DNA from: Conchocele bisecta
Taxonomy: Eukaryota > Mollusca > Bivalvia > Lucinida > Thyasiridae
Length of the DNA stretch: 64,000 bases
Assembly: GCA_029237695.1 (NCBI GenBank)
Contig: CM055273.1
Span: 60,935,968 to 60,999,967 of the forward strand
Direction of reading: 5' to 3'
Numbering within the stretch: position 1 is the first letter of the stretch; each line of letters begins with the position of its first letter. A program made the translations under genes and the position numbers. Shown piece by piece: positions 2,600 to 51,649 of the stretch. The notes below the pieces were generated by a model. It ran no database searches. It saw nothing but the letters and a program-made list of their open reading frames with translations, and was not told the origin of the DNA.

Positions 2600-3130
2600 T
2601 AGAAATAATAGGTGAAGGTAAAAAAATGATCACATGTTGGATAGTTGTATGTGGTAGGCACCCCTTGGTTATGAAGCTGTGAAAGTTTGGTGGTCCTAGG
2701 TGGTACAGTACCAAAGAAATGGACTTAAACACGAAAACTTAACATTGTAAAGGCGAAAACTTAACATTGAAAATGGCTAAGTCGACTGCACGGAAAAAAT
2801 GGGTGAAGTTAAAAAAAAAAGTAACATGTTGGATAGTGATGTGTGGTGGGTACCCCTTGATTATGAAGCTGTGAAAGTTTGGTGGTCCTAGGTGGTACAG
2901 TACCAAAGAAATGGACTTAAACACGAAAACTTAACATTGTAAACGCAAAAACTTAACATTGAAAATGGCTAAGTCGACTACGCGGAAAAAATGGGTGAAG
3001 TTAAAAAAAAAAGTAACATGTTGGATAGTGATATGTGGTGGGCACCCCTTGATTATGAAGCTGTGAAAGTTTGGTGGTCCTAGGTGGTACAGTAACAAAG
3101 AAATGGACTCAAACACGAAAACTTAACATT
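2600..3130 (+). repeat. 192-bp tandem array inside H1a, 3 units
   Basis: Units contain AACATGTTGGATAGTGAT, TATGAAGCTGTGAAAGTTTG and GGTGGTCCTAGGTGGTACAG, spaced 192 bp. The same array is present with 3 units in H1b and 4 in H1c. Confidence 0.88.
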
Positions 3131-3313
3131 GATTGTGGACGCCACCCGCCCGCCCGCCCGCCGCCCGGCTTTCGCCAATCCAATAGCCTGGATTTTTTTT
3201 CAAAAAACCTGGCTAAAAATTAATAAATTTATCCTAAAATTGAAAATTTCTCTCTCAAAGTATACTATTGCTAGAAAAGTATACTTTGCAATGTTGGTGA
3301 AATAGGCTACTGA

Positions 3314-8879: not shown

Positions 8880-9060
8880 TGACCCATTTATGATCTTGAC
8901 CTCCAGCACCATGTAAGCACTGGCCATCCAATCCCCGTCCCACCCCACCCCCGCCCCTGACTGAGTGTGAGACTAATGTCACTTGTTGCTGCCCGAGGCC
9001 TCGCGGGCCCAGCAGTGGGTGTCGGCCACCTCCAACACCATGTAGGCACTGGCCATCCCA
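8880..9060 (-). pseudogene. Two broken partial copies of MADD exon m plus intron start
   Basis: Copy 2 (about 8956-9059) repeats MASAYMVLEV then DTHCWAREASGSNK and the following intron start, 151 bp downstream of the real exon. It has lost two bases after the AAC AAG codons, giving a stop, and six bases that include the donor. Copy 3 (about 8893-8930) keeps only MASAYMVLEV and then diverges. They are tandem duplications inside the intron and are unlikely to be used. Confidence 0.85.
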
Positions 9061-9108
9061 CCTACCCAGACCCAACCCCGTCCCACAGCACCCCCACCCC
9101 TGACTGAC

Positions 9109-9303
9109 CTCGGGTGTGAGACTGGTGTCACTCTTGTTGCTGCCCGAGGCCTCGCGGACCCAGCAGTGGGTGTGGGCGACCTCCAGCACCATATAGGCAC
9201 TGGCCATCCCGCCCAGCCCGTAGTTCTGGAACGTCGACTCCAGCCCGTGCACAAACGCCTTCAGCAGTGACAGCATGCCCTTGTACACCGCCTTGGAAAT
9301 GCA
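9109..9303 (-). CDS. MADD: MADD exon m (VYKGML / GLGGMAS block)
   Basis: 195 bp, 65 codons, phase 0 to 0. Starts CISKAVYKGMLSLLKAFVHG, continues LESTFQNYGLGGMASAYMVL and EVAHTHCWVREASGSNK, and ends SDTSLTPE. Vertebrate MADD reads VYKGMLDLLK, GLGGMAS and LLEIAQTHYYSKE in this order. The acceptor is GATCTTGCAG and the donor GAG/GTCAGT. It is extremely GC-rich for this window. The 3' half of the exon together with the start of the intron is repeated twice just downstream (8880-9060), but those copies have lost frame or donor. Confidence 0.96.
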
Positions 9304-9663: not shown

Positions 9664-9850
9664 CACGTCCTCTATGTGAGTATCATCGTCGGTGAGTTTC
9701 TTATCAAGGTTCTTGTTGAGGCGACTGATCACGAAGTTGCGGTAGTTCTCGTCCTCGAGCAGCTTCTTGACGCGCCCCATCTTGAGCCAGCTGATACCCT
9801 GGCCATCGAGGATACTTGCCACCACCTCCTTCAGGAACTGCTGGTTCTCA
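9664..9850 (-). CDS. MADD: MADD exon l (conserved helical segment)
   Basis: 187 bp: one base plus 62 codons, ending phase 0. It starts ENQQFLKEVVASILDGQG, continues ISWLKMGRVKKLLEDENYRN and FVISRLNKNLDKKL, and ends THIEDV. Very close to the family block with ENQQFLKEVV, SVLDGQGVGWL, VRRLLE and FVLSKLNR. The acceptor is TTTGCCCAACAG and the donor GTG/GTACGT. It is the best conserved part of the central MADD region, the segment that clinches the identity. Confidence 0.97.
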
Positions 9851-10119: not shown

Positions 10120-10938
10120 GAACAGACCTGTTAGACGTGACATTGGTCTCGGCTGCCTCTGCTGCCCTTTCTGACTTGTACGTCTACTGAACTGACCTGT
10201 TAGACGTCTCCTTGGTCTCGGCTGCCTTCTGCTTGTACGTCTGCTGAACTGACCTGTTAGACGTGTCCTTGGTCTCGGCTGCCTTCTGCTTGTATGTCTA
10301 CTGAACTGACCTGTTAGACATGCCCATGGTCTCGGCTGCCTTCTGCTTGTACGTCTACTGAACTGACCTGTTAGACATGCCCATGGTCTCGGCTGCCTTC
10401 TGCTTGTACGTCTACTGAACTGACCTGTTAGACATGCCCATGGTCTCGGCTGCCTTCTGCTTGTACGTCTGCTGAACTGACCTGTTAGACATGCCCATGG
10501 TCTCGGCTGCCTTCTGCTTGTACGTCTATTGAACTGACCTGTGACACATGCCCTTGGTCTCGGCTGCCTTCTGCTTGTACGTCTGCTGAACTGACCTGTT
10601 AGACGTGCCCTTGGTCTCGGCTGCCTTCTGCTTGTACGTCTACTGAACTGACCTGTGACACATGCCCTTGGTCTCGGCTGCCTTCTGCTTGTACGTCTGC
10701 TGAACTGACCTGTTAGACGTGCCCTTGGTCTCGGCTGCCTTCTGCTTGTACGTCTGCTGAACTGACCTGTTAGACATGCCCTTGGTCTCGGCTGCCTTCT
10801 GCTTGTATGTCTACTGAACTGACCTGTTAGACATGCCCATGGTCTCGGCTGCCTTCTGCTTGTATGTCTGCTGAACTGACCTGTTAGACGTGCCCTTGGT
10901 CTCGGCTGCCTTCTGCTTGTACGTCTGCTTCTTGTTGG
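10120..10938. repeat. 57-bp minisatellite copying the 3' end of MADD exon k and its donor site
   Basis: The marker GAACTGACCTG recurs at 10189, 10246, 10303, 10360, 10417, 10474, 10531, 10588, 10645, 10702, 10759, 10816 and 10873, exactly 57 bp apart, plus one degenerate copy at about 10120. On the minus strand each unit reads QTYKQKAAETKGTSNRSVQ and contains AACAG/GTCAGT, the donor used by exon k. The first codon of a unit is CAG in some copies and TAG in others. Two copies (10531, 10645) carry CAC instead of AAC before the donor. Homogeneity is high, suggesting recent expansion. Confidence 0.95.
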
Positions 10939-10986
10939 TCGCGTGTTTCACCAGGCCTGACTTCTCCACCAGGGCTTTCCTGTTGC
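10881..10986 (-). CDS. MADD: MADD exon k, ending inside a 57-bp tandem repeat
   Basis: 106 bp: two bases, 34 codons, two bases. Reads (G)NRKALVEKSGLVKHATNKK then QTYKQKAAETKGTSN. Vertebrate MADD has GNRRALVDQKSSVIKHS here and NSSENQQ at the junction, which this exon rebuilds: AG plus T of exon l makes Ser before ENQQFLK. The acceptor is TTGTCTCTAG and the donor AACAG/GTCAGT. The last 15 codons are the first unit of the minisatellite that fills the intron behind it. A second identical donor at 10824 would lengthen the exon by exactly 57 bp (19 codons) and stay open. Any later donor lies behind an in-frame TAG. Confidence 0.9.
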
Positions 10987-18398: not shown

Positions 18399-18786
18399 CC
18401 TGAACGCCTGGCCGGTTTTGACTGGGTGTAGAGAGTTCATGCTTGACCGTTGACTGATGGACGACGGCAGACTATCCACACTTCCCTGAGACACGCAGCG
18501 TGCCCCGGGGTTCGGGCTGGGTGGTGGAACTCGGGGCATCCGTGGGCTCGACGACCCCAGCTCTCGCGGACTAGGAGGTGCCCGATCTCGAGGGCTGGGC
18601 GGGGCTCTATCTCTGGGGCTGGGCGGTGCCCTATCCTTAGGACTTGGTGGGTTATGATAGCCGGGGTTGGATTGTTTTTCGTAGGCGTCAAAGGCGGAGT
18701 TAACACTCTTCTTCAGTGGTTGGATGGGTGGGCGACTGGGCCTAGCTGGCGGCGAACTACCCGCAGACCCGACACTGTCCGCCCGT
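18399..18786 (-). CDS. MADD: MADD exon h (proline-rich linker with PPSPRDRA repeats)
   Basis: 388 bp, the longest exon here: one base plus 129 codons, ending phase 0. It opens RADSVGSAGSSPPARPSRPP, then VNSAFDAYEKQSNPGYHN and an octapeptide repeat PPSPRDRA present about 3.5 times (24-bp DNA repeat at roughly 18562-18650). It closes QGSVDSLPSSISQRSSMNSL and TGQAFR. The acceptor is GTGATATTTCAG and the donor AGG/GTAGGT. It is disordered by composition; the repeated SPR/SPK steps are proline-directed phosphorylation sites and possible SH3 ligands (inference). Vertebrate MADD has a serine-rich disordered linker in the same place. A plus-strand open frame covering this exon is a shadow. Confidence 0.9.
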
Positions 18787-38048: not shown

Positions 38049-39229
38049 CAAGAAACGAGGCAAAGCCACGAAGGCCAGGTTTTTTCCAAGCATAGACACT
38101 TGGATAACATAATTATACCCACTTTTTGTAGACTAGATGGCCGTGGCCTGCATGTCGCGCCTTGGGGCGAGGCATGGACACTAAAAAAATAGATATAGTA
38201 GATGGAAAAACTTTCACAAAAAAACTTTAACCGGACACACGGACGTACGGACGGACGTATGCCAAAATGCCGAAGATATCGCGCTTTCTGCAAGCGGGTG
38301 CGACAATGATGATAAACACCCATGTGAAGTATCAAGGTAATGGGTGAAGCAGTTGCAGAGATATAGTACACAAAAAAACTTTAACAAAAAAATTCAAAGT
38401 AATTTGACCTTGACATTGGGCACAGGGGCCGCACGGTTGGGGGTTAGAATGAAAATATGGATGATGATAAACACCCATGTGAAGTTTCAAGGTAATGGGC
38501 GAAGCAGTTGCAGAGATATAGTATAACGAAAAAGTTTTAACCAAAAAACTCTAACCAGACGTACGTTAAAAAGTTAACGTTGAAAATGGCTAAGTCAATT
38601 ACGTAGAAATAATAGGTGAAGGTAAAAAAATGGTCACATGTTGGATAGTTGTATGTGGTAGGCACCCCTTGGTTATGAAGCTGTGAAAGTTTGGTGGTCC
38701 TAGGTGGTACAGTACCAAAGAAATGGACTTAAACACGAAAACTTAACATTGTAAAGGCGAAAACATTAACATTGAAAATGGCTAAGTCGACTGCGCGGAA
38801 AAAATGGGTGAAGTTAAAAAAAAAAGTAACATGTTGGATAGTGATATGTGGTGCGTACCCCTTGATTATGAAGCTGTGAAAGTTTGGTGGTCCTAGGTGG
38901 TACAGTACCAAAGAAATGGACTTAAACACGAAAACTTAACATTGTAAACGCGAAAACTTAACATTGAAATGGCTAAGTCGACTACGCGGAAAAAATGGGT
39001 CAAGTTAAAAAAAAAGTAACATGTTGGATAGTGATATGTGGTGGGCACCCCTTGATTATGAAGCTGTGAAAGTTTGGTGGTCCTAGGTGGTACAGTAACA
39101 AAGAAATGGACTCAAACACGAAAACTTAACATTCATTGTGGACGCCGCCCGCCGCCCGCCCGCCCGCCCGCCCGCCGCCCGGCTTTCGCCAATCCAATAG
39201 CCTGGATTTTTTTTAAAAAAACCTGGCTA
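38049..39229 (+). mobile_element. Helitron-like composite H1, copy b
   Basis: CAAGAAACGAGGCAAAGCC to CCTGGCTAA; two 149-bp units, three 192-bp units and the CCGCCCGCCC tract. Provides the empty site for the 1759-2595 insertion in copy a. Confidence 0.8.
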
Positions 39230-50438: not shown

Positions 50439-51649
50439 CAAGAAACGAGGCAAAGCCACGAAGGCCAGGTTTTTTCCAAGCATGGACACTTGGATAACAT
50501 AATTATACCCACTTTTTGTAGACTAGATGGCCGTGGCCTGCATGTCGCGCCTTGGGGCGAGGCATGGACACTAAAAAAATAGATATAGTAGATGGAAAAA
50601 CTTTAACGAAAAAACTTTAACCGGACACACGGACGTACGGACGGACGGACGTATGCCAAAATGCCGAGGATATCGCGCTTTCCGCAAGCGGGTGCGACAA
50701 TGATGATAAACACCCATGTGAAGTATCAAGGTAATGGGTGAAGCAGTTGCAGAGATATAGTACACAAAAAAACTTTAACAAATAAATTCAAAGTAATTTG
50801 ACCTTGACATTGCGCACAGGGGCCGCACGGTTGGGGGTTAGAGTGAAAATATGGACGATGATAAACACCCATGTGAAGTTTCAAGGTAATGGGCGAAGCA
50901 GTTGCAGAGATATAGTATCAACAAAAAAGTTTTAACCAAAATATTTAACCAGACGTACGTTAAAAAGTTAACGTTGAAAATGGCTAAGTCAATTACGTAG
51001 AAATAATAGGTGAAGGTAAAATAAATGGTCACATGTTGGATAGTGATATGTGGTGGGCACCCCTTGATTATGAAGCTGTGAAAGTTTGGTGGTCCTAGGT
51101 GGTACAGTACCAAAGAATGGACTTAAACACGAAAACTTAACATTGAAAACGCGAAAACTTAACATTGAAAATGGCTAAGTCGATTGCGCGGAAAAAATGG
51201 GTCAAGTTAAAAAAAAGTAACATGTTGGATAGTGATAATGTGTGCACCCCTGATTATGAAGCTGTGAAAGTGGTGGTCCTAGGTGGTACAGTACCAAAGA
51301 AATGGACTTAACACGAAAAAACTTAACATTGAAAACGCGAAAACTTAAACATTGAAAATGGCTAAGTCGATTGCGCGGAAAAAATGGGTCAAGTTAAAAA
51401 AAAAAAGTAACATGTTGGATAGTGATAGTGGTGGGCACCCCTTGATTATGAAGCTGTGAAAGTTTGGTGGTCCTAGGTGGTACAGTAACAAAGAAATGGA
51501 CTCAAACACGAAAACTTAACATTGATTGTGGACGCCGCCGCCCGCCGCCGCCCGCCCACCCACCCACCCACCGCCCGCCGCCCACCCCCCCCGCCCGCCC
51601 GGCTTTCGCCAATCCAATAGCCTGGATTTTTTTTCAAAAAACCTGGCTA
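50439..51649 (+). mobile_element. Helitron-like composite H1, copy c
   Basis: CAAGAAACGAGGCAAAGCC to ACCTGGCTA; two 149-bp units and four 192-bp units; very long CCGCCGCCCGCC/CCCACC tract near 51530-51600. Inserted three bases inside the right end of insertion A. Confidence 0.8.

Follow-up and report, generated by a model that had tools for sequence, protein, structure and literature searches.

The gene MADD of the bivalve Conchocele bisecta carries, across the 3' end of one of its exons (here exon k), a tandem array whose 57-bp unit joins the last coding bases of the exon, its 5' splice site (donor) and the first bases of the intron. Thirteen donors with identical letters thus stand behind a single acceptor. 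The array lies in a 64,000-nucleotide stretch of assembly GCA_029237695.1 (contig CM055273.1, positions 60,935,968 to 60,999,967), to which we refer as the window and whose numbering is used throughout. It is a known kind of structure, the mirage, found here in a bivalve and in MADD. We give a probability of about three in four to the reading that this mirage is a lineage-specific exon-boundary minisatellite in which the donor nearest to the acceptor (donor 1) is used, while the downstream copies are removed with the intron and are nearly neutral.

Results

Structure of the array

Tandem Repeats Finder (TRF) reports the array at 10169-10926 with 13.3 copies, 94% matches and a score of 1318. 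Read on the minus strand, it resolves into 13 in-register units of exactly 57 bases, starting at 10927, 10870 and so on down to 10243, and a fourteenth (start 10186) that is degraded and altered by an insertion. Each unit is made up of 47 nt matching the end of exon k, the donor, and 10 intronic nt (47 + 10 = 57). An initial annotation of the window had described at least 13 copies of such a unit with 13 identical donors, and both the TRF result and the unit listing bear this out, as they do its positions for donors 1 and 2 and for the first in-frame TAG (Table 1); its account of the unit stands except that the exonic part measures 47 nt and not 45. Donors 1-13 all read CAG/GTCAGTTCA, with their first intronic G at 10880, 10823 and so on to 10196; donor 14 (first G at 10127) reads CAG/GTCTGTTCA (GTCTGT), unlike the other 13. 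A TAG opens units 3, 6, 8, 10, 11, 12 and 14, and units 5 and 7 have TGTCACAG in place of TCTAACAG just before the donor. The repetition is far beyond chance: the 45-nt donor segment has a best self-match score of 45, whereas 50 shuffles reached at most 11. A 114-base, two-unit probe compared with the whole 1.89-Gb genome, with very common words skipped and only the best candidates scored, gave 9 listed matches, all of them within the array.

Table 1. Features of the array and of the neighbouring MADD exons, in window coordinates
Feature	Position	Strand	Basis
MADD exon k, 106 nt, ending at donor 1, reads (G)NRKALVEKSGLVKHATNKKQTYKQKAAETKGTSN/S	10881..10986	-	sequence and homology to bivalve MADD proteins
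57-bp array: 13 in-register units (10927-10187) and degraded 14th (10186-10128); unit 1 overlaps the exon end	10128..10927	-	TRF, unit listing, unit statistics
Donor 1: last exon base 10881, GT 10880-10879, with unit 1's 10 intronic bases	10871..10881	-	junction SNS/ENQQ as in relatives
Donor 2: would add 19 in-frame residues	10814..10824	-	unit listing
First in-frame TAG, start of unit 3; included if donors 3-14 are used	10811..10813	-	
Donors 3-13, identical CAG/GTCAGTTCA, spacing 57	10196..10767	-	unit listing
Donor 14, CAG/GTCTGT, behind the degraded last unit; predicted least accessible	10126..10128	-	
Next MADD exon (SENQQFLKEVV...), acceptor AACAG/TGAGAACC; AG/T in phase with all donors	9664..9850	-	
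Second, smaller duplication of a MADD exon end and donor: 151 bp, 1.9 copies (TRF 8928-9210) and a short third piece	8898..9210	-	

The host gene and the ancestral junction

That the gene is MADD, as the initial annotation named it, the Rab3 guanine nucleotide exchange factor of the DENN proteins, is confirmed by protein homology along its length and by a single orthologous locus. Of 7591 candidates for the joined exon translations, used as a protein query, 6718 matched at E <= 0.001. Judged from the best 120 of the 6718, the top matches are MADD of Ruditapes philippinarum, Mactra antiquata and Mya arenaria, with identities over the queried region of 86%, 84% and 82%, respectively. When Ruditapes MADD was in turn compared with the genome (best candidates scored), 26 of 28 matches fell in a single locus on the minus strand, about 220 kb long (C9:60848174-61067763), and the remaining 2, outside it, were 29% identical. 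The pieces in the locus are 49-100% identical and span Ruditapes residues 1 to 1734, with short unmatched stretches (e.g., 717-742, 877-894, 924-957, 1169-1192 and 1598-1629); part of 924-957 (PKPFAPLG) was located near 13.5 kb. MADD appears to be single-copy and functional in Conchocele bisecta.

Among the matches listed, the segment encoded by exon k is present once, ending in SNS or THS directly before ENQQFLK, in all seven of the closest proteins (P0001-P0007: five Ruditapes isoforms, Mactra and Mya, from three species). Donor 1 recreates this junction (AAC AG/T GAG AAC) and, since the closest relatives carry the segment once and with the same junction, its use keeps the ancestral product. 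Elsewhere in MADD, another exon carries an in-frame coding minisatellite (18562-18635, minus strand; 24 bp x 3.1) that encodes PSPRDRAP-like repeats, a stretch whose length differs from that in Ruditapes.

Consequence and strength of each donor

All donors of the array share one phase and, as the initial annotation had it, the products of donors 1 and 2 therefore differ by 19 residues with the frame kept. Donor 1 yields a 106-nt exon followed by a 1030-nt intron (counted to the acceptor at 9850), the intron upstream of exon k being about 2.5 kb by estimate; donor 2 yields an exon of 163 nt. Donors 3-14 yield exons of 220-859 nt that include the unit-3 TAG, 44-683 nt ahead of the junction. The claim that in-frame stops block longer forms thus stands for any transcript spliced at donor 3 or later, even though some of the later units lack a TAG.

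Among 25 MADD donors, donors 1-13 rank fifth (tied) by a human matrix, fourth by a leave-one-out matrix of the gene itself and tenth by U1 pairing (-8.0 kcal/mol). Their predicted accessibility is 0.44-0.65 unpaired, against 0.18 for donor 14, and, these values being alike across donors 1-13, we rejected an RNA structure that hides donors 2-13. Units acting as cassette exons or as recursive splice points were rejected as well: the AG sites within units are preceded by 3-6 pyrimidines (positions -16 to -4), against 8-11 at six real MADD acceptors. The 10-nt intronic part of a unit is far too short to serve as an intron alone.

Conservation within the array

Units 1-13 differ on average by 3.1 of 57 bases (range 0-7), and units 4-5 and 6-7 form a dimer pattern of the kind that unequal exchange typically leaves. 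Nine of the 57 columns vary among the 13 units. The donor 9-mer holds none of them (P 0.19), and no significant conservation of the donor letters beyond the rest of the unit was found across these 57 columns and 13 units; the longest invariant run, of 25 columns (P 0.048), is exonic. Of the nine variable columns, read in the MADD frame, two are silent, while seven change an amino acid or create a stop, one of them toggling between CAG (7 units) and TAG (6 units); with so few silent columns and one making TAG, no coding constraint is visible in the later units. No significant constraint is seen either on the donors or on the frame in which the copies are read, at a power that is low because the units are young or homogenised.

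Background rate of duplication across donors

Copies were sought by local alignment of a 45-nt probe around each site within 1.5 kb, at a threshold of 17.5 that was set post hoc as the score of the weakest MADD case. The test covered 21 MADD acceptors and 24 of the 25 MADD donors; e24 was not located by its string, and the positions used for e1 and e14k were off by one base. A downstream copy was found for 3 of the 24 donors: that of exon k (self-copy score 45), that of the exon ending at 9109 on the minus strand (17.5, exactly the threshold, with its 151-bp duplication confirmed by TRF) and that of a MADD exon outside the window (locus L014, minus strand, last base 3260; score 30), which has a copy 163 bp further on, a degraded third and a TRF period of 139. 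None of the 21 MADD acceptors had one (P 0.06 at a 12.5% rate). Random positions had a copy in 75 of 600 cases in the window, 11% of which is taken up by TRF arrays with periods of at least 20, and in 66 of 900 cases in six other MADD loci (4, 7, 11, 5, 10 and 29 of 150).

The same test was applied to 66 myosin-head exon pieces (of 71 listed matches), where donors and acceptors are predictions, the donors through the human matrix, and where there are overlapping or nearly duplicate loci (L075 and L077). Copies were found at 8/65 donors, 7/62 acceptors and 81/660 random flank positions; in L023 and L071 the scripted site falls within an array, downstream of the likely real donor. A TRF array underlies just three of the eight donor hits (L023, L054 and L071), the other five being local copies without one. 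Pooled, 11 of 89 donors and 7 of 83 acceptors had a copy, so that no excess at donors by coverage was found (Fisher P 0.46). At a threshold of 25 the figures become 2/24 for MADD donors, 54/600 for random window positions, 6/65 for myosin donors and 5/62 for myosin acceptors. Tandem duplications abound in this genome; exon edges are engulfed by duplication at about the general rate (7-13% in controls), and the donor of exon k is apparently not special in this respect.

Other duplications in MADD and myosin genes

In the smaller MADD duplication (Table 1), the original donor reads GAG/GTCAGT and the second copy has lost its donor and contains a stop; a second tblastn match at 9065-8982 supports the duplication. 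In the third (L014, G000:C9:60917500-60924000, about 3260-2900 of the minus strand), the second copy retains an open QEINKLLNEFESL reading together with a good donor, gtgagt, and the string ttcttcag, which resembles an acceptor, while the third copy is degraded. Going by these features, the second copy could be a spare or alternative exon. Both GTCAGT donors among the 25 MADD donors read by hand (9109 and 10881) sit in tandem duplications, an observation made post hoc; the remaining duplicated donor reads GTAAGT.

MADD exon k is not alone in having a donor repeated at high copy number. In the myosin-head exon L023 (G000:C17 near 10296211), a 68-bp x 10.8 array with 93% matches (positions 1785-2516 of the reverse complement) repeats the exon end (YHYIRQGGEPK/gtaatg), the donor and the start of the intron, the same architecture as in MADD. 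Similar repeats with internal arrays (units of about 149 and 192 bp) also recur in the window at 691-1705 together with 2602-3131, at 38569-39133 and at 50963-51525; these are perhaps one transposon family carrying tandem repeats.

Discussion

We suggest that the array arose when a tandem duplication took in a segment straddling the boundary (47 exonic nt, the donor and 10 intronic nt), and that it would then have expanded and been homogenised through unequal exchange or slippage. Exon k, with introns well over 250 nt, would be recognised across the exon, and the donor nearest to the upstream acceptor would beat its 12 identical downstream copies; because donor 1 would win in this manner, donors 2 onward would be removed along with the intron and the gene would keep working. 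Some low-level use of donor 2 may occur as well, giving rise to the form longer by 19 residues. Minigenes support this scenario: in the portion of PMC9225289 available to us, splicing in five minigenes that had the same donor twice (CAG/guaagu) and introns of 365 nt went through the upstream donor only; with long introns, the upstream member of a pair of comparable donors is favoured, as it is in the long-intron class of the genome-wide set. These minigenes resemble exon k in placing equal donors after one acceptor, with introns over 250 nt, and differ from it in having two designed donors in transfected cells rather than 13 natural ones. Exon k, by its own length and those of its flanking introns, fits the long-intron case, and we hence expect donor 1 to be used; upstream-only use of identical donors also implies that added downstream copies should be nearly neutral. 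The effect of the array on splicing is, in our analysis, probably silent. The initial annotation had proposed that copy number directly alters splice choice, and this view of the row as a splice-choice device is not supported, given the P value of 0.19 for the donor letters, the similar accessibility of donors 1-13 and the upstream-only minigenes (PMC9225289, as available).

Several points weigh against the reading that donor 1 is used and the copies are near-neutral. The 13 bases around the donor are invariant too, at P 0.08, and neutrality is argued from a lack of signal in nine variable columns, which carry little power. The exon-definition rule comes from human data and from minigenes with two donors each, against 13 here, and it is a tendency: among all genome-wide events with near-equal donors, the upstream one is preferred in just 60% (PMC9225289, available portion). 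No transcript of Conchocele bisecta was recognised among the best 120 of the 6718 proteins or among 11 of 39 from a second search.

The strongest competing account, which we nevertheless consider unlikely, is that donors 1 and 2 are both used, so that two MADD proteins are made that lie 19 Lys/Gln-rich residues apart, with unit 2 kept free of stops by selection. Unit 2 is in frame and without a stop, its donor is identical to donor 1 and similarly accessible, and the extended exon would be of ordinary size. However, 6 of the 12 units that follow unit 1 carry the TAG, so that unit 2 would be free of it by chance in one case out of two; none of the seven closest proteins has a longer form at the junction, and in the minigenes identical donors were used upstream only (PMC9225289, same portion).

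Still less probable is a poison exon, in which some transcripts would use donors 3-14, acquire a TAG and undergo nonsense-mediated decay, so that the length of the array sets the level of MADD. Any such use would indeed include the unit-3 stop well ahead of the junction, and by all three measures of strength the donors are decent for MADD; yet exons of 220-859 nt would be required, proximity to the exon disfavours the distant donors (PMC9225289, same portion), and no similar form appears among the seven closest proteins, a comparison that covers proteins and not the introns of the relatives. We give very little credence to an assembly artefact, whether a false array or a wrong copy number, since the units differ in a mosaic pattern and the 0.8-kb array sits between MADD exons inside a 98.8-Mb contig; the exact copy number could differ between alleles. 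Least credible of all is a donor row that acts as a decoy for U1, titrates it or shields the intron against early polyadenylation: it would offer 13 good U1 sites within 690 bases, but U1 is far more abundant than any one pre-mRNA, which makes titration by a single pre-mRNA implausible, the donor letters are not significantly conserved (P 0.19) and random positions are duplicated at a similar rate.

Mirages in amphioxus Adh3 were reportedly described by Canestro in 2002, and a 2007 study by Zhuo on human introns from tandem arrays concerns, by its title, arrays that yield splice sites. The MADD array shares with the amphioxus mirages of Adh3 and the globins BflGb6 and BflGb9 a tandem unit that spans part of an exon, a splice signal and part of an intron. 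In the part of PMC3087553 available to us, their units measure 10-72 bp in Adh3 and 150-160 bp in the globins, many of them with AG/GT signals; regular splicing is reported as undisturbed, and concerted evolution, divergent edge units, copy number that varies between haplotypes and length instability, in Adh3 even somatic, are described. The 57-bp unit falls within the reported size range, and the homogenised units 1-13 followed by a degraded unit 14 match the pattern of uniform interior and divergent edge. The MADD case differs in phylum and gene, in its 13 identical donors, in its phase-preserving unit interrupted by stops, and in being known from sequence alone. Tandem repeats at exon-intron boundaries have also been reported in human segmental-duplication genes, with 27 intron modifications (De Grassi and Ciccarelli, 2009; PMC2812944, available portion). 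These too are minisatellites at exon-intron boundaries able to change splicing, although they concern recent paralogs with RNA-supported new introns, whereas MADD is a conserved gene and its array is seen in DNA only. The initial annotation knew of no described case in MADD, and none was found in the open-access literature searched, even though the kind of structure has been described, as mirages (PMC3087553, as above). That literature, judged by title and start of abstract among the papers listed, likewise yielded no evident molluscan exon-boundary minisatellite, and no such array was seen in the available parts of PMC12783039, PMC4039745 and PMC7931591.

It is tempting to ask whether minisatellites of this genome arise preferentially at the 3' ends of exons, with donor regions as nucleation points, an idea that we hold to be doubtful. 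In 211,677 bases around the 66 myosin exon pieces (arrays of period >= 20 and >= 5 copies, with TRF rows at the same place merged), 4 of 12 distinct arrays have their gene-sense 5' edge at most 100 nt from a donor read by eye (expected 0.75, P 0.005), with edges at about -42 (L023), +4 (L071), about +14 (L055) and about +75 (L082) relative to the donor. The last three are high-copy minisatellites that follow exon ends, from 2766 (29/58 bp), 1761 (38 bp) and 1768 (41 bp), respectively. By coordinates read by hand, only L066 has an array that ends at most 100 nt upstream of an exon match. This is a lead and not a result, because the 100-nt window was picked post hoc and donors show no excess by coverage. 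If true, mirages would be general in the introns of Conchocele bisecta and would constitute a standing source of spare donors and new exon ends.

With the MADD array, two further duplications in MADD and another high-copy array in a myosin gene, exon-boundary minisatellites extend from lancelets to a bivalve. The MADD array also offers a natural test of spliceosomal choice: a single acceptor is followed by 13 donors with the same letters, and 19 added residues or a stop serve as the readout. It suggests that genomes rich in tandem repeats can tolerate them at splice sites thanks to exon definition.
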